This document shows positions 2,429 to 62,400 of a stretch of 64,000 nucleotides of DNA, one piece after another. Every line of letters starts with the position of its first letter. Within the stretch, counting starts at the first letter, position 1. The position numbers were made by a program, and so were the translations under genes. Source of the stretch: Cristatella mucedo (lineage: Eukaryota; Bryozoa; Phylactolaemata; Cristatellidae); NCBI GenBank assembly GCA_009760855.2, contig WPIO01000135.1, forward strand, positions 969,501 through 1,033,500, read 5' to 3'. The notes below the pieces were generated by a model. It made no database searches, was not told the origin of the DNA, and saw only the letters and a program-made list of their open reading frames with translations.

Positions 2429-2481
<53 letters not shown>
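2429..2481 (+). repeat. (TG)n microsatellite
   Basis: About 26 uninterrupted TG units, upstream of the first visible CCDC15 exon. Confidence 0.97.
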
Positions 2482-2484
<3 letters not shown>

Positions 2485-3097
2485 CACTGGCATTTCATGC
2501 CCTTCAAGAATGATATGATGGAAAAGAACCTAATAGAAGATCTTCATCCCCTCTACTACCACTGCCATTTCACCTTATAGTAGAATAAAAGTATCTCCCC
2601 TACCCATTGGCACTTCTTCTATCCTGGCATATGTGCACCGATTGAACATATTCTTGTTAAAATTTTAAAGATTGTAATCTCAATTGTAGCTTGAGCAGAC
2701 TCATATAAACACTTCCACCTGGTATCCCGATTGTAATATTTTAATGGTCTTTTGAAGACCTTTTCTGTTTCAAGGTACCATACATCATAATCATCATCAA
2801 GAATGAGCACCCTTTACGTGATCGTCCTCGTCCGACTCTTTGAGTGAATTTAATGTGATCCTTGCTGTGACATGCTAGCTCAGTCTAAGCAGCTGCGGGA
2901 AGATGAGGACCTTGCTGGTACTGCTTGGGGCTGTGATGACTGTTGCACTGGTGCTGTACAACAACAAGCTGTGTTCATTGTTAGGTGTATCCACCGATTT
3001 AGTGTATGGTTTTGTAAGCAGACCAATATCTTGGTTTCGAGTTTCTACAGTTGCAATTATTCTGTCTTCTGCATGATACCTTTGAAAATGTTAATAG

Positions 3098-6000
3098 GAC
3101 AGCTGGTCAGCAGCAGATGCTGTCAGGCAGCAGAGCGAGCACGTGTCAGTTATCAAGGCCGAGCGTCTGAGGCAGTTTAACGAAGAGGTTCGACGACGGG
3201 TTCACCTACTCGAACAGATGAAGAAGAGGCAGCTTTTAGAGCAATCGTTCAAGGCTGTAAGTCCCTGAGTGTTGCTGCATTGTTTTGAGGTTAGGTGGCT
3301 GCCATTATCTGAATGGTTTGTCACCAGCTTGCTTGCTGTCGGTGCTCAGTTTATAAAAACTGGTCGACTCGTTCTAGTGCAAGTGAAGAACAAGTTTGCC
3401 GTGGAGGGCCTTTACCATTAACAGTATTAATAGTAATAATGCATTTGTTATAGGGCCCCCAGGGAATCCAATCTCTTTCTAGGCACCTCACATCTTTTGC
3501 CTAGGATCGAATGGTTAGGGAAAGCATGCTCAATGACATTAGGCGTATTATGATTAGAGGTGACATGCATAGTGTCAGCATGCAAATATGGTTAGTGGCA
3601 GCATGCACAGTGTCAGCAAGTATAAGCACACAAAGGACGAATCGCGTGGACCTACTAAATGCTGTCAGAAATAGCTGCATTTTTAGTTTCTTTTTAAATG
3701 TGATCAAGTCAAAGGGTGTCGTGACGGCAGTCGGAAGTGAGGTCCAGGCTTTGGGAGCATACGAACTAAAGGCACGGTCTCCCAAGAATTTGAGGTTCGT
3801 ACGAGGTATAGTTAAACGATTAGATTACGAAAGCGAGTGGTACGATGCTTAGCCCAGTGGGCAGTAGATCTGACCGGTAGGCTGGAGCCAAAGAATGAAG
3901 GGACCTAAAAGTGAGTGACAAAACCTTGAAGTCGATCCGTTGCTTGACTGGCAGCCAGTGCAGGTCGGTGAGAAGTGGTGTGATGTGGCAACTGCACTGC
4001 TCACGACAGGCAAGCCTAGCTGCAGAGTTTTGCACCAACTGCAAACGCCTGATTGAACAGACCGGTAGACCAGCAAGCAGTGAGTTACAGAAGTCGAGAC
4101 AGGATGTCACAAATGCATGGACCAATTTAGATGTAGTGTCCCTGTCTAAGCTAGCCCGAGTTTTAGCAATGTTATGTAGCTGAAAGTTGGCAGACTTGAC
4201 TGTGGAGCTGATGTGGTCGTCTAATGAAAAGTCACTTTGGATCATGACACCTTGATTTCGTGCAGATTTAACAGGAGTCGAGCTGGCAAGCCGATTTTAA
4301 GCCTTGGGTTTTCCAGTTTCTGAATCACACAGGGTTTGCCCATTACTAGTAAGTTGGTTTTCTCATCGTTAAATTTAAGAAAGTTTTTTGCTGCCACCCT
4401 TATGCATATGTCATCGATATATGCAGCAAGGGAGTTGAGAGAATTCGACGTGCTGGAGGGCTGGGAGGGATCAAAGAAAAGGTACAAAAGAGTTTCATCT
4501 GCATAGAAGGGCAAGCCTAGGTTGTGCAATCACATCAGCAAGAGGGAGAGTATAAAGCACGAAAAGAATGGGACCAAGCACAGAGCGCTGAGGTACCCCA
4601 TACTTCAGTGGGTCCTCAGACGATCGTTTTCCATTCACATCAATATCCCGGAGTCTCCCGATGAAATAAGACTTAAACCATTGCAGTGCAATCCCTGTGA
4701 TGCCCAGGCGAGACGAGAGGCGCTCGAGAAGTGATTGCCATTTGCATCATATAGATGAAGAGGGGTGACAGATTTTTTAGAGCAACTGCTCCCAGAGAGA
4801 AATTGTGAACGATTCCTGTTTCAAAGTGAATCTTCAATAGTACTTCTCGTTTATTGATGAGATCATTATCACACAATTTAATGTTTAGTTATTTCCCAAG
4901 CCAATTTTTTATTGGAGCACCAGTTTTCTTCATGACACCTTTACTTAGCATTCACTACTTTTCTGCTTCTTAGGGACACTCAATTCAGTCTCATGCTATT
5001 CTGCTTGACTATCAGCAAAGCAAAGTACCTTAGTAATCGATAAGCATCTGCTCTCTTGTTGACAAACTGGGACAGGAGTTAGCACAAGTGCCAGCAAGCT
5101 GAATTCCCAGGCATTCCTGTATGCAGCAGTACACAGCACATTTCATTTACTTTTGTGTCGTTTGATCGTTGATCAGATAGGCAAGAGAGGCAGAAGCTGC
5201 CAGTCCTGGTCAACCTGTCACTGACTGGTGTGGCAGAGAAGTGAGGGTGTTCTTGCACTGCTGAGCAGGGCAGTGCTAGTCCTATGCTAATCTACATGTC
5301 GCCTCCTGTAGTAAGCCAGTAGCATGGTGCCGTCGTCTGTGTAATGGGGGTGTTCTTTTGTTTAGTAAGCTAAACGGGTATATGACCCTGGCTGATACTC
5401 CCTGGCTGATCCGATGGTACTTGCTGATCACTGATTGGCAGCAGCAGTGGTTCCATTAACGGCTGCTTAGAACAGCTGCTGTGTGGAAGTGGTCTAACTA
5501 AGATAAGATGGTCCTCGGCCGTTAAGGGAATCCTGTGAGCCACGGCTGGTTTTGGTGCATAGCTGCCGATAAGGAATTAGCAAAGCCGTCCTCCATGCAC
5601 TTGTTGCCACGGGAAACTGTCTTCCTCTTCAGTCCCATCGTTTGTAACCAGGGCTCGAGGACTTGATTGGGAAGCATTTAGCCTCTGTCAGCTGGTGCTA
5701 CAAATAGGTTATTCTTGACCTAACGTTGACCCTGAAATTGACCTAATTTTGATACCTCTAACAGCTATTAAATCATTTGAGTCGTGGTATTAAGCTTATT
5801 ATTAAGTGGTGGCTGTAGGTTGGCAATTTGCTTGGTAGGGTGGCCTGACGTGCTATTTCCCTGGTTCTTGCTGTCGCTTGAGAGTCGAGTATATTGAGCC
5901 CTGGCACCAATTTGCAGCTGGAGTTAGAGCGAAGCATTGTGAGGAAAACGGCATTTGCAGCCGAGACAGCTGTTCCGCGAGCAGCTGGCTGCATCATGCA

Positions 6001-10452: not shown

Positions 10453-13400
10453 TGTGTGTGTGTGTAGTCTCTCCTTGTACTGGAACACGTATTATCTGCC
10501 TCCAACGTTCATGCCAAAAGCTACTGAGCCAAGGAAAACTTTCAATCTACAATGAGTACCAGTTTCTGGTAGCCACGTCATATCCTGTTTTGAAAGTAAG
10601 ACCATTTGTAGATCATTCCACTGTCCAAGAAGTGTGTGCCTATGTGTTTCTGGTATTTTACGAGACCAACTCATTCATATACAATGAATACGATTTAAAG
10701 TGAATCTTGGTCAGCATTTAGAGCAGTGGTTCTCAACCTTCCTAATGCTGCGACCCTTTAATACAGTTTTTCATGTTGTGGCGACCCCCAACCATAAAAT
10801 TACTGCATGCAAAGTGTAGAAGTGCGTGTTTTCCTATGATCTTGGGCAACCCCTGTGAAAGGGTCGTTCGACTCCCAAAGGGGTTGCTACCCACAGGTTG
10901 AGAACTGCTGTTTTAGAGCCTCTTAGCCCGTGGGGATTGTGAGCCTACATTAGGAAGAAAATGTAAGAGCAGTTGTTGATCCTCGGTTGTTTATCAGACC
11001 ACGTGACCCCATAGCCATATACCTCATCATTTATTGGCTACTATTCATCCGTAACATAGCACTTGTAGGATGCGATATTGTCTTTGTAGTCTATTGAATG
11101 CCGCGGTAGCATACACTCTTACTACTTTCATAGCCTTGCGAGGTCTAACAATTTAACTGCATGTCAACAATGTTCTGTATTGTATTGTACTCAGCCACTT
11201 CCTCGGTTGTGGTACAAAGAACTGCCACTTTGGGAAGTGGGATAGATGGCAGAAACATATGGGTCTTAGCCTAAGAGTAGGGTGCTCACACTTCATGATC
11301 CTGGTCGTGGGTTCGACTCCTATAGCAGACAATGCCTTATTGGCTACTGCCAGCACGAGTTATAACTGTTAAGGCTCTTCCGCTACTGTTTAAATGAAGC
11401 TTTGAATCAGCTTACTTTAACTTCTTTACTTTATTATGCCACAGCTGTTGTATAGCATACGTCATTCTATGCACAGTGATATTTCCATGTAGCAGTCAGA
11501 TTTGTATGATCACACCTCTAATCGCCATCTGTGACCCGAGGACATCCATAACATCCAAACTCACATTAGGAACGATAAGCTCGGAGGCCGCTGTCTGCCT
11601 GCAATCAATTCCTGTCCTGTGGTTAGCTCACACTTAGCAGCCTCCTCATTTGTATAGCAGACGACAGAAGAGCCAAAATGACCATCACCACCGGTTGTAG
11701 TGGGCAATCAAGGATAGTTCACTGCAGGACTTGAACCCACGACCTGGGTCGTGAAGAGCAAGCACCTTACCTCCTGAGCTGAGATCCAGATTAATAGAAA
11801 GGTCCTTTGTTGTTGTCCTAACAGCAGACAGAGAGCAATAGGTTTTTGGCGCTTTTGCAGGCATGTGCTTGTCTTATATTTGGATATGATTTGAGACATT
11901 GCCTATGTATCAATAGAGCCTATGTACCTATGCTTCGACATGATATCACTGCTATCATCTTTCATCACCGTCTTGCCAGATAAACCAAAATTGATTCCAA
12001 GCACTGTTTTTACTGTCTTGACCGTCTGTCCAGCTGAGTTCTAGGAAAGTATTTTTCTTTATAGTCGACTTCCTAAACAGTCCTTTACATTTAGTTCTCG
12101 TGGGCTGGTTTGTTTGAGCTTCTCTATGTGAGCAGCAGGCAATTAAGGATTGCCGCTGCAGCTAGACTTGAACCCACCCACGAGCAGGATTGTGAATTGC
12201 GAGCGCCTTAGACCCCTGAGACTAAGGTTCAGGACTTACCTTTATAATGCAGCCACGTTTTCTGCCCATGCATTTGATTGCTGTGACTAGCAACAAGCAG
12301 GTATGCTTTCAGCATTCGCTAGCTTGAGTGCCGAATTGTGTACACTGGCAGATTCATTTTCTCTTTGGCTCATGTGCAGAGCCCCACTCACGTCCTCTTC
12401 GGTATCCAGAATCATTTTCAAATTGGAAAATCGTAAGACCCTTAACATTGATGCTGTCCAAACGAAGATATCTTTCCTTGCTCATGTAGCTCAATCCTTC
12501 ATTTGGCCTGTTCTTAATAATGTCATGTTACAAAACGACACTCACTAGCCAACATTCGGGACGAGTTTGCTTCTCTGACTAAACACATCGTATGCTGTTG
12601 TCCATATGGCCAGTGGCTTGTAGCTTGAAATAGTAAGCGAAAGCTTGAGAGAGCACGCAGAAGATCAGGACTAGCTGCCCATCTGCTGGCATACAAGGAA
12701 CATTATGGATCCTACCAATCTCTTCTAGCCAGGCCATGTCCAGCTTCCATAAAAGCATAGTTGAACCACAAGTGCACAATCCAAAAATGCTGATGTCGCC
12801 TGTCTGCCATCTCCTTAACTGCTTGTACGTCAACACCTTATCTAGTGATCCTTGTTGTGGTCTAGTAGATCACCTCTCTAGGTCCGTTGTAAGCAAAGTG
12901 GAGAAGGTTTGAGAGTCCATCCCCAATGTAGCATCATCACTACTCTCCACCAATTCCTGGCAGTACCACAATGTCTACCATCAAGCCTGCCACTAGTTAC
13001 TTCTTCTCGAAAATTATCTACCAGTCTTCTTTAAGATGACTACTAGCCCTCTAAACCCTATGCTCTATGCTTTCCCTCTGATATGTATGGATTTGCTGCT
13101 ACCCTTCATATCTAACCTAATAAATTTGTCCTTCGCCACAGGTCTTGTCCCTGCACCTTTCAAAAAGGCTGTCGTTTGGCCATTCATTAAGAGGGCTACA
13201 GGGAACTTTAGCAAGACCAGGAGAACTTAAGGCAACTTATATCTAGTCCCAACTGCCACTCCTATCACAGACCCTGGAGCGAGTGAAGGTAGACGAGCTA
13301 AAATCTCATCAAAGTCTCAAACCTAGCAAGTGAGTTTCATTCTAGTCTTAAAGCGTTTCACTCCACAGAATCAGAACTGCTGCTAGTATATACATCGACC

Positions 13401-16400
13401 TTCTCCAGATTGCAACCTTAGATAGAGTCTCTGCAGTTCCGCTGGATCTCTTAGAAGCGTTTGGTACTATTGATTACAAATTCCTTGAGCGCCTCTCGTC
13501 TTGCCTGGGCACCACTTGCCCCGAACTGCAGTGGTTAAGGATCTATCTCGGTGGGAGAGTCCAGAGCCAACATATGTCATCACGGGCAGTAATCATCAGA
13601 GGAAAGCAATCATTCGAGGAGCCACTAAAGTATGTGGTACCCCAGGGCTCTGTGCTTGGTTCAAATCTATTTTCAATTCATACTTTCTCACTTGCCCATT
13701 AATCGCCAAACACAATATAGGCTTTCACATCAAAGCCGTTGACATATAGCTGTGCCTACACTTTAGGGGGAAAAGTCCTCGAAGCATGGCCATCTCTGCT
13801 ATGCCTTAAATTAGTTCGGGTAATAAGAGAGTTTTCTACGATACTAGGTTATACTAAAGTTATACAAAGAATATGAAAATATTTATTGACAACCCGAAAA
13901 CAAACTCGTATGCTTTTTGAGTGTGTGCACTTAGTGTGACGTCGGCTCACCACACTACTGCATGCCCTCTCTTGTCTAGAAAGGAATAGAGGCCTCCAGC
14001 TTCTGCATTATTTCTTCTGCTGTAGCACATTCTGCTGAGCCAGAGTTTTACTGAAAGGATCGGCTCTGAGCCAAACACTTGGTCTCAGCTGCTTGTCGCT
14101 ATTGCTGCAGTCGTTTTATAGGGTTCAGATTGGGGCAACGGCTGCTGGAGCGGGGCTGCACCAGCACCAGACAAGGATTCGTCAAATAAGCCTGGCTTGT
14201 GTGATAGGGCGCTTACAGTTGTTACAAAACTCTGCAGCTGGGCATGTCTATAGTTAACGTTGCAGTTGCCACATCGTTGCACAACTTCTCACTGACCTGC
14301 ACTGGCTACTCATCGAGCGTCGTATCGACTTCAAGATTTTGTCTCTTACTTGTAGTTCCCTTCTTTCTCTTGCTCCAGCCTACCAATCTGACCTACTTTG
14401 CAATCAGGCCAGGCATCGTACCACCTGATCTTCTGATTCAGGTCGTTCAGCTGCGCCTCTAACCAACCTCAAATCTTTGATATTGTGCATTCATTTCGTG
14501 TGCTCGCTTAATTAGCCTGGAAGGCACTACTGCCTGTCATTTATTTAGCTACTCCCTTATTTGACGAAATTAAAAAAGAAGCTACGCAGAGTTTATTTGG
14601 CGTTTGCTGTGTCCATGTGAATTGTCTCCGTATGAATTGTGAGTGCTTACGCTAGCTGACTTTGTGCGTGTTATCACTAACCAATTGACCTGATTCTTTT
14701 AGAGCACATGCAAAGATCTTAGAAATAGATTTAGTTCTCCGAGGTTGCTATACGAATGTCTTATTATTATTTGCCATTTTTCACAGTTGTCACCAAATAC
14801 CTCTAGCACTGATTTCACAGTTTGAGTCGTAGTATGGTTTATATGGAGTATTACAATATTTTTTGCATTTTTAGGGGCATTGTGTGTCTGTTGACCTATC
14901 TGATGATGCAGACGAAGAAGCTGAACCCCGTGCTGGTAAGCTGCTCCTACAGCTAGACAGTGTGAGCTAGTATGACACGTTCATTCTGTATCGAAAAGGC
15001 TTCTGTTCGTCAGTAGAGCCTGTCATTAAATTTAATGTGCCGATTAAGCATTCGGTAGTACATAATCGTGAGGTGAGTAATCGAATGCAGCCTTTCTTAT
15101 TGACTAGACTGTGCTCTATTCTGGACGAAACATCTCTTTTGATGCTATTTCTTTACCTTGGCAATAGTGTGGTCATATTAATGAACTTTGCTTTGATCCC
15201 TCCCAGCCTTCGAGCACCTCGAATTCTCTCAACTCACTTGCAGCATGTATTGATGACATCCGCACATGGATGACAGCAAATTTTCTAAAACTAAACGATG
15301 ATAAAACTAACTTACTAGTTATGGGCAAACCCAGTGTGATCCAGAGATTGGAAAGGCTGACTCTCAAAATTGGCTCTGCCAGCATATCTCTTGTTGAATC
15401 AGCTCGAAATCTAGGTGTCATGTTCCAAAGTGACCTCTCGTTAGACGACCACATGAACTCCACAGTCAAGTCTACCTTCTTTCAGCTACATAGCATTGCT
15501 AAAATTCGGGCTTGTTTAGATAAGGATACCACGTCTAAGTTGGTCCATGCATTTGTGACATCCCGTCTTGACTTCTGTAACTTACTGCTTGCTGGCCTAC
15601 CAGCATGTGCAATCAGGTGATTACAGCTGGTGCAAAACTCTGCAGCTAGGCTTGTCTGTCTTGAGCATAGCAGTTGCCACATTACACCACTTCTCGCCGA
15701 CCTGCACTGGCTACCAGTCAAGCAGTGGATCGACTTCAAAGTTTTGTCGCTCACTTTTAGGTCCCTTCATTCTATGGCTCCAGCCTATCTCTCAGATCTA
15801 CTCCCCCACCAGGCCAAGCATCATACCACCTGCTTTTCGGAATCCAACAGTTTACCAATACCTCGTACAAACCTCGAATCCTTTGGAGACCGTGCAATTA
15901 GTTCCTATGCTCCCAAAGCCTGGAACTTCCTCCTGACTTGCGTCAGAACATCCCCTGACTTGACCACATTAAAAAAGAACCTAAAAACACGCCTATTTAG
16001 GACAGCATTTAGTGGGTCCCTATGATTCGTCCTTCATGTGCTTATGCATGCTGACACTGCATGCTGCCACTAACCACATTTACATGCTGACCCTGTGCAT
16101 GTCACCCCTAACCATTTTATTCATATCAAGCATGATATTACTCACGATTCAATCGCATTTCCCTTCGCAGCAAATGTAAAGCGCCTAGAAAGAGATTGAG
16201 TTCTCTGAGGGCACTTTATCAAGTGCATTTTTATTATTAATATTAATATTATTAACTGTCCAGCAGTAGTCCTCGTGTCTAGACTAGTCACGTACTAGCC
16301 AAACTGTCTATAATCAGAAATAGATCTTATGTCAGTTTGCTGTCTTACTTTCACCCTTCTGCATGAATCTTGAGGTGTAAACTCACCCGTATAATTATCT

Positions 16401-37438: not shown

Positions 37439-46919
<9,481 letters not shown>

Positions 46920-54700: not shown

Positions 54701-57399
54701 CCTATGGTTTACCACAGACATTAAACTAGCTAGGTCTAGTAAGCGCAAGCTTGAAAAACCATACTAAAGATCTGGACTGACTGTCCAGCGACAGGCATAC
54801 GAGGACTACTGTCAGTCGTACCAATTGATCCTAGCAAAGGTCAAGTCTAGCTTCTATAAAAACATTGTTGAATCACAGATGTACAATCCAAAAATGCTGA
54901 TGTGGATGATCAACGATCTCCTCAACCACTCCCAGATTAGCTCCTTACCGGATGATCCCTGTAATGATCTAGCTGATCGCTTCCCTACCTCCCTTGTCCA
55001 GAAGATAGACAAGATCAGGGAGTCCATCCCTGCGATATCAGCATGCCCCCTAGAATGTTGTCCTTTGATTCACTGCAGCACCTCAATGTCTACATTCAAG
55101 CAGGCCACTAGTGATCTCATCCTGAAGTTCATATCCCAATCAAAGAAGACAAGTCCTTTGGACCCAATTCTCAGTCCTGCTCCTACGTTGCATTGATCTG
55201 CAGCTGCCGTTCATAACTAGTAGAATTATTGTCATTAGCCTCAGATCATGTCCCAGCACCTTCCAGAAAAGCTGTAGTCAGGCCACTTCTCAAGAAAGCG
55301 ACACTAGACCAAGAGAAATTGAGCAATTACCACCTAGTCTCCCTTCTATCATTTCTGTCAAAGACACTGGAACGAGTCGTAACCGACCAGCTAAACTCGT
55401 ATATTGAAACTTCAAGCCTTGCATGTAAGTTCCAGTCTTGCTTTAGAGCTAATTACTCCACGGAGTCAGCATTGCTTCGGGTGTACAATGACCTACTTAG
55501 AAATGCAGACATGGGTAGAGTTTGTCTGCTCGTTTTGCTTGATTTTTCGGCAGCTTTTGATACTATCGGTCACCAAGTCCTTCTTGAGCCGCCTCTCATC
55601 TCGCCTGGGTATCACTGCCACTGCTCTGCAATGGTTCAGGTTCTATCTCAGTGGGAGACTCCAGAGTATTGATGTGAATGGACAGAAATCATCCGAGGAA
55701 CCTCTAAAACATGGGGTACCTCAGGGCTCCGTGCTAGGTCCGGTTCTTTTCACTGTTTATACTCTTCCTCTTGCCGATGTGATTGCCAAGCACAATCTAA
55801 GCTTTCACTTCTATGCGAATGACACCCAGTTGTACCTTTGCTTTGATCCCTTCCAGTTTTCGAGCACCTCGAATTCTCTCATTTACCCTCACTGCATGTA
55901 TTGATGACATCCGCACATGGATGACAGCAAATTTTCTAAAACTAAACGATGATAAAACTAACTTACTAGTTATGGGCAAACCCAGTGTGATTCAGAAATT
56001 GGAAAGGCTGACGCTCAAAATTGGCTCTGCCAGCATATCTCCTGTTGAATCAGCTCGAAATTTAGGTGTCATGTTCCAAAGTGACCTCTCGTTAGACGAT
56101 CACATCAGCTCCACAATCAAGTCTGCCTACTTTCAGATACATAACGTTGCTAAAATTCGGGCTTGTTTAGATAAGGATACCACGTCTAATTTGGTCCATG
56201 CATTTGTGACATCCTGTCTTGCCTTCTGTAACTCACTGTCTGCTGGCCTACCGGCATGTGCATTTAGGCGCCTACAGCTGGTGCAAAACTCTACAGCTAG
56301 GCTTGTCTGTCGTGAGTGTCGCAGCTGCCGCTTATCGCCACTTCTTGCCAGTCGATCGTGTTTCCTTTGCAGCAAATGTAAAACACACAGAAAGAGTTCT
56401 CTTAGGGCACTTTATCAAGTGTATTTTTATTATTATTATTACCATTATTATTATTATCTGGGTGACCTATTCCTAAGTAATAATTCACTAGATGAGTGCA
56501 TCAGCTCTGCAGCCAAGAGTGCCTACTTTCAGCTATGTAACGCTGCAAAAATTCGTGCTTACTTAGATCAGCTTACCTCAGCCAAGCTGGTCCAAGCTTT
56601 TGTAATATCCCATCTAGATGTCTGTTACTCACTACTTGCAGGTGTTCGTACGTGTGCAAGATTTTGCTTGCAGACCGTTCAAAACTCAGAGAGGTTGTTG
56701 ATGTGAACTAGTAACTGCCACATTATGCTACTTCTCTCTGACCTGCCGCAGCTCCCCAGTAGGCTGCAGGTCGAGTCGACTTACTTTCGGAGCTCACTAC
56801 CGACTGACGTTACGACGTCCTCTGACGTCACGACATTTAAAGAGAAACTAGAAATTCACTTATTCCTCAAAGCGTTTGCTCTCTCCGAGTAAATTGTCAT
56901 TTGGGTGCTGAAATTGTGCTGGTTATCACTAACCAATGGCCATGCTTTCTTTCGAGCTGACGTTAAATGCCTAGAAAAAGAGACCTGTTAGGGTGTTCTG
57001 AACATATTATTATCATTACTTTTGCATGCCCTAGATGTGAATGCATGCGCGTGCATTGCTTGCAAATGTCGATTTGTGTGTTCTCATTAAGATTACTGAG
57101 TAGGCTGCCTCACCCCAAGGGTTATTCGTAGGGTAAGGCTAACGCTGCTCATTTTTTATTACTATCGTTTGCAGCTTCTGCATAATGTCCTTGCCAGTTA
57201 GTCCATTTCCACTCAGTGTATTTGTGAGTTTGCCTTGATGCCGCGTGTGAATGGCTGTAGCGGGCTGTGTGCTAGTGGGCTCTCCCCGCCTGTCTCTCTC
57301 TGTCTCTGTCTCTTTCTCTCTGTGTCTCTCTTTCTGTCTCTCTCTCTCTCTATCTCTCTCTGTCTGTCTCTCTGTTTCTGTCCTTCTGTCCTTCTCCCT

Positions 57400-59448: not shown

Positions 59449-62400
59449 ACACATGTGTTTGTGCACGCTTCAAGAAATTAGAGAACCTCACTTGGTCGTC
59501 CGCAGTCTGGGCATACTTGTATGAGCACAGCAATAGGCCAAAAAGAATACGACATGTGTGAATAAAGTCAGGCAAAAAAGCATCAGGGTCCATGGCTGAA
59601 CTCTCGAACCGAGCTGTTTCCAGCACTCTACAGTTGCTGAAGTAATGCACAGCCAACTGTAGAAAGGTTTTTCTCCAAAGCCCCATTCTTGACACATGTA
59701 ACAAGTGATTGTGCTCAATGGAGGTATGCTACTCCAGAGAACTATCTTCCAAAGCTGTGACGGTGTCGAAAGCCGCAATTAGCCTCAGACGTTACCAAAG
59801 CAGGGTGGTTTTCGCATTTTCTGGCTCACTGCAAGCTTGCACGATTTCGCCTTGTCTCAAGTTAACTAGGCACTGCGATTTTCACGGTTTGCAGCTCGTC
59901 TCAGGATGCGAGGATTTTTGGCAGTGCATTCGACACGGTGCCGCTGTGTGCCAGCAACTGCTAACAAAGCATTTTATCATTTTCGTTCCGCTGCAGGTGT
60001 GTGCGCTGCGCACCGGTGCCGACAAGCAGCTGCTATGCCGTGATGGCCACGATTGCTGATCGGGCGCGCGTGCCCTGGATCGGCGGCAGCGGAGCAGTGC
60101 AGCTGCAGTGCGATGTCGCCCTGCCGATCCTCATACTGCCGACGCTGTTCGTGCTGGCCACGGCGCACGAGCTGCTCACGATCGCCGTCTGCCTGGCCAC
60201 GCCCATCGCCCTGCTGCTCTACTACTTCCTGTGGCGGCGGAGCGGGCCGCGCCGCTCTCGAACGCGCTTCTTCTATGCCTGGTCCCTCGTGTCGACTTTC
60301 GCCTGCTTCTACGTGTTTGTCGTTGCCGCGGTGCTCTCCCGAGAGGTGCTGCTGTGGGAGATGCTGATCGTGTTCACCCTCTTCGGCGTCATGCTGTACG
60401 CCCTGTACTTGGTCAAGTGCGACCCAGGCACCCTGCGACCCGTTCACTCAGTCAACGCCTCCGCTGGCGGAGAGCAGAGGTCAGCATCGGCAGGCCGCGA
60501 TCCTGCCGGGTCTTCTGCTGCCGCTGCCTCCGCGGACAGGGGCGACGTGGCGGCAAATAGCGGCAGCTGCACGAGCCCCGTGAAGAGGACTCGGGGCGTG
60601 AGCGAGTGCCTCAGCGAGGCCGACGTCACGTGGGTTGACTCGAGGCCACTGAAGGGTGAGCGCGCTGAAGCATCGTCATTACATTAACGTCGGGCGCCTC
60701 GAAGGCTGCAGCCTCGAGTGCTGAGCACCTTGCACACTGCCATGCATCGGTGGGAGGTTTGGGTGGAGGCGTTACGTCTCGGTGGCCTATTGTCTGGGAC
60801 AGAGGGGAGGGAGGGCTAGATATCTGAGTGCTGAGTGCCCAGATGCCATGTTCAAGAGCAGTCTGAATGCCTGCCTTCGCATTCTGTTGGCGCGGCAGCG
60901 TCCAGCCGTCTGGTTTGCTGCCGCCAACCCTCTACCTCTTCAGCAGCTGCTGTAGGAAGGGGTCGGTCGCTGTGAGAGCTCGTAGGCTATTTTTGCTGTG
61001 TATCTGCCTCAAAGGCTAGCAGTTCTTGCTCACTGGACACAGGTAAAGTTGAGTAGAACTGACACACCTTTACCCAAGACTGAAATGATGCCAAGTCAAT
61101 GCAGATGGTGACAGAAGCCGGAAGCATGCTCCAGACTTTTAGTACATGCAAACTGAAGGCTCTGTTGCTAAGAGATTTCAATTTAGTGCGTGGGACTGTG
61201 CGATGCCCAGATTATGAGAAGTGGATGGTTCGAGAGCACGTGACTGGAGGAGCAAGAAGATGGGATAGGTCAAGGCTGGTGCAAGCAAGATCTGTTTAGT
61301 CTAACCGATACTTGGTAGGGAGATAGTGAAGCTGAGACAGAAGTAGTGTGGTATGGCGGCTATGCCATTGACAACAGACCAGGCAAGCTGCAGCTCCAGT
61401 CGACAGTCCTGAATAAAGGGAATTGCAGTGGCCTTGATGTGACTTCTCAAGGCATGAACTAGTTTGGCCGTGGTACTCCTGTCCAAACGGGACCTGATTT
61501 TGTTCCTCAGCTGAATTTTGGCTGACTTGACAGTTGGGGTAATGAGTTCATCCAATGACAATTCGTCTTGGAACAGCATTTCCAGATTACCGACAGATGT
61601 ACTGGGATGATGCTAGATAAACCAATCTTGAGGATGAGGTCTTCCAGCGTAAGGATAATAGTAATAATATATTTGTATAGCACCTCTAGACAACTCAATC
61701 TCTTTCTAAGCACTTTACAGATGATGTAGAGAGAGAGAGAGAGCAGTCTAAGCTGCCCACTAATTTTGGACGGAAGCCATTTTGCTGTGAGGGGTCGCAG
61801 CAGTTGTCATTGGTCGGCTGGCTTATGCTTCAGCTATAAATCAGGAACAAGCCCAATTCATCCTTCAGGGGGAACACTCCCACCGAGCTAAAGCCATTAT
61901 CTGGCTTGATGGCTAAGTCGTGCTGTTGGCATAGACGAGCAAAGGGTGAGGCTCTGCCCAGGCAAAAACCAGCCGGAAGACGTGATTTTTGGTATACTTG
62001 TCAATCTGTGATGATCGTCTTCCATGCCGTCCGTGCTTAGCCTTTTAGCTATTGCCGGTATCTCGATGAACTTGTCATGTTGGGTAGATGTGCTGCTGCT
62101 CACTTGATTTAGCTTGCTTCTAGTGCGAGTAGGAAAAATTGCATGCAAGCAAACCAACTGGTTCTGCAGGCATGCATGCTTGGCTGGCTGAGGTTTCTTC
62201 CCGTGTCTCAGCTAGTATAGGCATACATAGGATATCTTAACTGCTCTCCAATCATAGGTCGAGCGAATCAAAAGACCCCTCCTCGGTTAACAGGGTACTG
62301 GACGATACAGTTTATATGCAAGGGGAAGGCTATATTCTCTGGTTTATGGCATTGCTTGCATGCCCTTGCATGTACCTATTCGATTTGTATTTCATTCACA

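Follow-up and report, generated by a model that had tools for sequence, protein, structure and literature searches.

The locus described here raises the question of how a transposon with ends like those of a tetrapod element came to reside in the genome of a bryozoan. Among the familiar examples of horizontal transposon transfer is SPIN, a family best known from its movement between vertebrate lineages, and a short hAT element in Cristatella mucedo (Bryozoa; Phylactolaemata) carries ends that closely resemble it. The window, by which we mean the whole stretch of DNA analysed, comprises 64,000 nucleotides of a single contig (C39:969501-1033500 in the assembly as searched). We conclude with good confidence that the element is a fossil SPIN-family MITE (hAT superfamily, Buster group) that was acquired horizontally by this phylactolaemate bryozoan and spread as deletion derivatives, with a provisional rodent sequence as the family reference.

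Structure of the element

The non-autonomous, SPIN-like hAT element (MITE) is 187 bp long and occupies positions 10724-10910 of the window on the plus strand. It is flanked by two 8-bp copies of a target site, ATTTAGAG on the left (10716-10723) and TTTTAGAG on the right (10911-10918), which by direct reading agree at 7 of 8 sites and are centred on TA, bearing out the target duplication proposed in the first-pass annotation. The element starts CAGTGGTTCTCAACCT and finishes AGGTTGAGAACTGCTG. The CAG...CTG short terminal inverted repeats that are a hallmark of hAT elements are present, the 16-bp repeat at the 5' end (10724-10739, plus strand) pairing at 14 of 16 positions with that at the 3' end (10895-10910, minus strand); the coordinates and the length given at first pass are exact. 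A repeat finder recovers the same inverted repeat (21 nt, 81%). The element's DNA folds with mild stability (z -2.67), which its inverted ends would lead one to expect, and an Rfam search of 10600-11050 with E values up to 0.1 gave no match.

Three parts can be distinguished within the element, all on the plus strand: a SPIN-type 5' terminal segment of 81 bp (10724-10804), a 21-bp interior typical of the 187-bp family (10805-10825), which replaces the long SPIN-like interior of other copies, and a SPIN-type 3' terminal segment of 85 bp (10826-10910). The ends of a consensus of 30 copies agree with rodent URR1/SPIN at 164 of 166 sites (79/81 in the 5' segment and 85/85 in the 3' segment, with 77/81 and 77/85 for the window copy), the reference being a provisional rodent sequence set down after the consensus had been seen. 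The window copy departs from the consensus at 12 end sites, and at 11 of these the provisional rodent URR1 sides with the consensus. In a full-length gapped comparison, identity between the consensus and the provisional URR1 is only 78.7%, because the interiors differ. Besides ends that are near-identical to the provisional reference, the bryozoan element shares with the SPIN_NA and URR1 elements of tetrapods the 8-bp, TA-centred duplication and a population in which short copies abound and long ones are few. It differs from them in its 21-bp interior, as set against the provisional URR1 interior, and in its invertebrate host.

Copy number and divergence

The first-pass annotation had proposed counting copies across the assembly. 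We searched all 572,011,866 bp (688 contigs); a C. mucedo assembly is described in the accessible part of PMC13326412 as smaller than the 956 Mb of Flustra foliacea. With the element as query, at least 41 matches were obtained, 40 of the 2218 first-look candidates having been scored. A 34-bp core pattern, allowed up to 3 mismatches, matched at 747 places in the assembly (377 + 370; 34 exact), and a 36-bp pattern from the 3' end matched at 821 (391 + 430; 67 exact); the reversed-pattern control for the core and the control for the 3' end both gave 0. A single copy at a misassembled junction is ruled out by these three counts, together with the empty sites described below.

When a binomial mismatch model is applied to the ratios of exact to total matches, divergence comes to 0.104 for the core and 0.076 for the 3' end, with modelled totals of ~1,430 and ~1,160 copies, respectively, both of which are rough model figures. 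The two estimates disagree somewhat, since the 3' end, which is common to all forms, should not be the rarer of the two. We estimate that the 187-bp form is present in 1,100-1,500 copies.

From 38 extracted loci, 30 copies were aligned, leaving aside two duplicates (L022 and L039) and six shorter matches (L012, L015, L017, L020, L021, and L031). Of these copies, 22 came from loci found via a pattern that included part of the right flank; one, in L037, neighbours the pattern match. Raw distance to the consensus averages 9.0% over the 30 copies (range 4.8-17.7%), and the window copy, at 9.1%, lies close to this mean. The 22 pattern-found copies, which were chosen with less bias towards resemblance to the window copy, stand at 10.0% raw distance (K2P 0.109; K2P without CpG sites 0.100). 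With the rate for this lineage taken, by assumption, as 2-5 substitutions per site per billion years, the family would be some 20-50 million years old.

Target site duplications and empty sites

The flanks of the 30 copies agree at 8/8 sites in 14 copies, 7/8 in 7, 6/8 in 5, 5/8 in 2, and 0-1/8 in 2, so that 26 of 30 copies have flanks agreeing at 6 or more of 8 sites. When the pairing of left and right flanks was shuffled 2000 times, the number of identical pairs averaged 0.97 and reached a maximum of 6, compared with the 14 observed. Base preferences were taken from the first eight copies only (L001-L008), because the pattern used to find the other 22 fixed part of the right flank. In all eight, TA occupies sites 4-5 of the right flank, and 7 of the 8 flank pairs agree at 6 or more sites. 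Such a central TA in the target site is characteristic of the Buster group.

For 29 distinct insertion places, we also joined the two flanks (32 queries in all, since three of the places were entered twice) and compared these with the extracted loci and the window. For 6 of the 29 places (L002, L006, L007, L019, L025, and L028), insert-free repeat matches span the junction. Three of these six places were inspected at the junction: L007 is ungapped within 12 bases against both window 54674-54387 and L078, and L025 and L006 each have a one-base gap within 12 bases. The presence of insertion-free counterparts in repeats of the same genome shows that these insertions took place in this genome.

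Host identity

The mitochondrial contig (C688) is 21,008 bp long, has 55.5% A+T, and uses code 5 (invertebrate). One strand carries nad1-nad6-cob-nad4L-nad4-nad5 together with cox1, atp6, and cox3, and the other carries cox2, nad2, and rrnL; cox1 was named via Pfam and rrnL via Rfam, and the remaining genes by reading their translations. The nad1-nad6-cob-nad4L-nad4-nad5 block also occurs in molluscs and is mollusc/phoronid-like. The contig contains long exact repeats of 1.8-2.1 kb. One long stretch is present three times, in direct orientation at 10795-12913 and 12910-15028 and inverted at 2431-4225 (L042-L044), and the contig has a second, partial nad3 frame. Calls for tRNA-Ser and tRNA-Gly, together with part of nad3, fall within one repeated stretch. 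Kutyumov et al. 2021 reportedly described the C. mucedo mitogenome as the largest among bryozoans, at 21,008 bp, with trnS1, trnG, and nad3 duplicated, and its gene order is said in the same work to resemble that of molluscs and phoronids. The mitogenome of Pectinatella magnifica measures 17,539 bp and has 62.88% A+T (PMC7799736). The first-pass impression of a non-tetrapod genome is supported by this invertebrate-code mitochondrion with its mollusc/phoronid-like gene block, the kinship and most of the gene names being assigned by reading. A search for tyrosinase/hemocyanin as a molluscan marker returned no match, and as its controls returned none either, the result carries no weight. Pieces of cox1 are also found outside this contig (C166:4375626-4376390, C83:2826-3735, C549:2641741-2642010, and C299:634220-634540) and are likely nuclear mitochondrial insertions.

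Vertebrate contamination, or a chimeric assembly, would be another way for such an element to appear in these data, and SPIN/URR1 is abundant in rodents and other tetrapods. The evidence leaves this explanation with a vanishingly small probability and, where the family in its entirety is concerned, refutes it: eight different contigs of 1.1-12.8 Mb carry the first eight copies, with the listed pattern matches on many more, insert-free counterparts exist in the genome's own repeats, and an interior peculiar to the 187-bp family accounts for 747 core matches.

Longer relatives and transposase remains

At L012, L015, L017, L031, and L037, the same ends flank longer interiors, which we take to read like SPIN. 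A 216-bp piece of the L031 interior gave at least 40 matches (all 40 of those scored, from 92 first-look candidates). A 40-bp interior pattern, composed partly from a provisional SPIN sequence after L012, L015, and L031 had been seen, gave 24 matches, none of them exact, and 0 in the control. Three copies have a length of approximately 3 kb (L075, 2956 bp; L076, 3288 bp; L077, 3110 bp) and are 77-85% identical to each other; their flanks agree at 2/8, 7/8, and 8/8 sites, respectively. L078 is a 1123-bp derivative with 8/8 flank agreement. The same ends thus enclose elements of four size classes (about 3 kb, 1.1 kb, 0.3-0.6 kb, and 187 bp), a series that supports the earlier suggestion that the short interior marks a deletion derivative.

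In addition, all three ~3-kb copies contain remains of a transposase, encoded antisense to the element as drawn and with the frames broken in every case. The first-pass annotation had suggested looking for an autonomous copy with a Buster-type transposase, and these broken, Buster-like remains are what the search yielded. Relatives of the N-terminal piece of L077 with 45-80% identity occur at five places (C133, which is L077 itself, C676, C111, C658, and C332) among the 138 candidates scored with this 192-residue query, which copies without that part would escape; those in C658 and C332 are fragments of 61-63 residues. The remaining matches are distant hAT proteins with 27-38% identity. Pfam searches of 8 pieces gave one hAT match, Dimer_Tnp_hAT in L075, which at E 0.043 falls below the cut-off, and neither NCBIfam (5 pieces) nor PDB (1 piece) gave a match to the transposase remains.

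Human ZBED5 is a Buster-derived protein, and a provisional version of its sequence can be aligned in four pieces (frames 3, 1, 2, and 3) over almost the entire L077 remnant, with less complete alignments to L075 and L076. The provisional ZBED5 also aligns to L079, a distantly related hAT protein encoded elsewhere in this genome, in a single 391-column, 152-bit piece, so that the match identifies a hAT protein of a broad kind rather than SPIN as such. Taken together, the remains indicate that a Buster-like autonomous element was once in this genome, with the three long copies examined now broken. L079 (C653:8165100-8167300) is itself a distantly related hAT transposase whose open frames are long (241 and 199 residues); it has a sub-threshold Pfam match to 'Spin-doc zinc-finger' and may represent a younger hAT family.

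These data bear on a rival reading, namely that the family is another Buster-group hAT, indigenous to the lineage, whose likeness to SPIN is confined to the conserved termini. Conserved terminal regions of ~106 bp are indeed shared among Buster elements, according to the accessible part of PMC4298943, and the genome does hold other hAT proteins, both those 27-38% identical to the L077 piece and L079 with its match to the provisional ZBED5. However, agreement of the consensus termini with the provisional URR1 extends to 164 of 166 sites, and the interior of the long copies is, on our reading, SPIN-like. Buster1 and Buster2 share with the bryozoan family, as we read it, the Buster group MITE structure, conserved termini, and horizontal transfer, but the terminal repeats printed for Buster elements in Table 1 of the available portion of PMC4298943 (e.g., CAGGGCTTCTTAAAC; CAGGGGTGGCCAACCT) are clearly unlike CAGYGGTTCTCAACCT. 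We therefore consider a native Buster family improbable. Membership of SPIN, rather than of hAT elements at large, is the reading we prefer, on the strength of the agreement with the provisional URR1 together with the SPIN-like interior of the longer copies and the Buster-like transposase remains.

Known hosts and probable horizontal transfer

Several invertebrates have been described as hosts of SPIN or of related horizontally transferred elements. In the accessible parts of the respective reports, Rhodnius prolixus has SPIN, OC1, hAT1, and ET in common with tetrapods (PMC11614815), and Biomphalaria glabrata has a SPIN-like hAT at about 1,000 copies, with no intact transposases detected (PMC5440852). 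On the tetrapod side, 385 SPIN elements are given for the painted turtle in the available text of PMC4054807. Of the invertebrate hosts named at first pass, the snail and the triatomine bug are borne out by these accounts; for planarians, the available text instead describes OC1, which is present in planaria and the triatomine bug (PMC3621081), and Buster1 (PMC4298943). Hosts listed there for Buster1 and Buster2 are a planarian, a strepsipteran, a triatomine bug, a butterfly, and a bat.

By description, the closest parallels to the bryozoan family are the Biomphalaria SPIN-like hAT, which shares an invertebrate host, a similar copy number, and transposases that are not intact (PMC5440852, in part), and the SPIN_NA_12/13_RP elements of Rhodnius, likewise SPIN in an invertebrate (PMC11614815, in part); both differ in that their hosts belong to a phylum other than that of the bryozoan. 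OposCharlie1 (OC1), compared on the same descriptive basis, is a different family, but it is also a horizontally transferred hAT that is common to tetrapods, a triatomine bug, and planaria, with mean distances from consensus of 2.2-10.5% in the accessible part of PMC3621081.

Among the top-ranked open-access literature, judged by titles and abstracts and with subscription SPIN papers outside its scope, we found no report of SPIN or of transposon transfer in bryozoans, and a word-start search for 'bryozo' returned nothing in the available text of PMC4298943. SPIN is a known kind of element, and the bryozoan is apparently a new host phylum for it.

One could suppose that bryozoans and tetrapods both received SPIN by vertical descent from the ancestor that they share. 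We found no point in favour of this, and we regard it as hardly conceivable given that copies lie only ~10% from the consensus and that the termini are a near-perfect match to the provisional rodent sequence. Neutral DNA would not be expected to stay so alike over more than 500 million years, and the combination of low divergence and near-identical termini is not what vertical descent over that time would be expected to leave.

We also searched for a virus or phage as carrier, and the viral and phage collections yielded no relative. IMG/VR pattern scans for viral carriers of the element gave 0 matches, and in a protein-based scan, 1 stretch fit a pattern and none encoded a relative. No match to the element was found in the phage collection, plasmids, or E. 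coli genomes, and a prokaryote collection scanned for stray vertebrate DNA with the SPIN end yielded none.

Proposed history and implications

A history that joins these observations (the ends with their duplications, the empty sites, the copy numbers, the range of shorter forms, the broken transposase, and the non-vertebrate host) would begin with the entry of an autonomous SPIN of ~3 kb into the bryozoan lineage by horizontal transfer. The SPIN transposase, whose gene runs on the opposite strand in the orientation used here, would have bound the ends and subterminal sequence, excised the element, and reinserted it at 8-bp target sites with a central TA. The shorter forms would then have arisen through internal deletion; of these, the 187-bp form was presumably the most successful, multiplying, as hAT biology suggests, by trans-mobilisation. 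Since this form retains 166 bp of terminal sequence and little else, it would have preserved the sites to which the transposase binds while losing the gene itself. Activity has presumably ceased, as all three long copies examined have broken transposase frames.

We think it probable that SPIN invaded Bryozoa (Phylactolaemata), a host phylum not previously reported, and that it there gave rise to its own 187-bp derivative; freshwater communities would then be a hub for spread between tetrapods and invertebrates. Animals of these communities have snails, waterfowl, and fish-infecting myxozoan parasites in common. A bryozoan is sessile and filter-feeding and takes no blood meal, and its addition to the list of hosts would weaken the case for blood feeding as the main route of transfer; shared fresh water or shared parasites would be favoured instead. 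C. mucedo is a host of myxozoans that can infect fish as well, and waterfowl disperse its statoblasts, which together provide concrete candidate carrier species that are open to sequencing.

Other features of the window

A non-LTR-like family is represented by several copies in the window (43355-44386, 55217-55672, 3820-4296, 40453-41280, and 13352-16025). The frames at 43355-44386 and 55217-55672 match Pfam RVT_1 (1.8e-13 and 1.4e-9, respectively), and that at 40453-41280 has no RVT_1 match in Pfam. A longer frame of similar non-LTR look lies beside the 3-kb SPIN copy of L077 (L077:201-1895; RVT_1, 7.9e-26). Towards the end of the window, an exon-like frame at 62221-62574 matches DHHC palmitoyltransferase (Pfam E 1.1e-9). 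A membrane-protein-like frame at 59965-60687, which has no Pfam match, may be part of the same gene.
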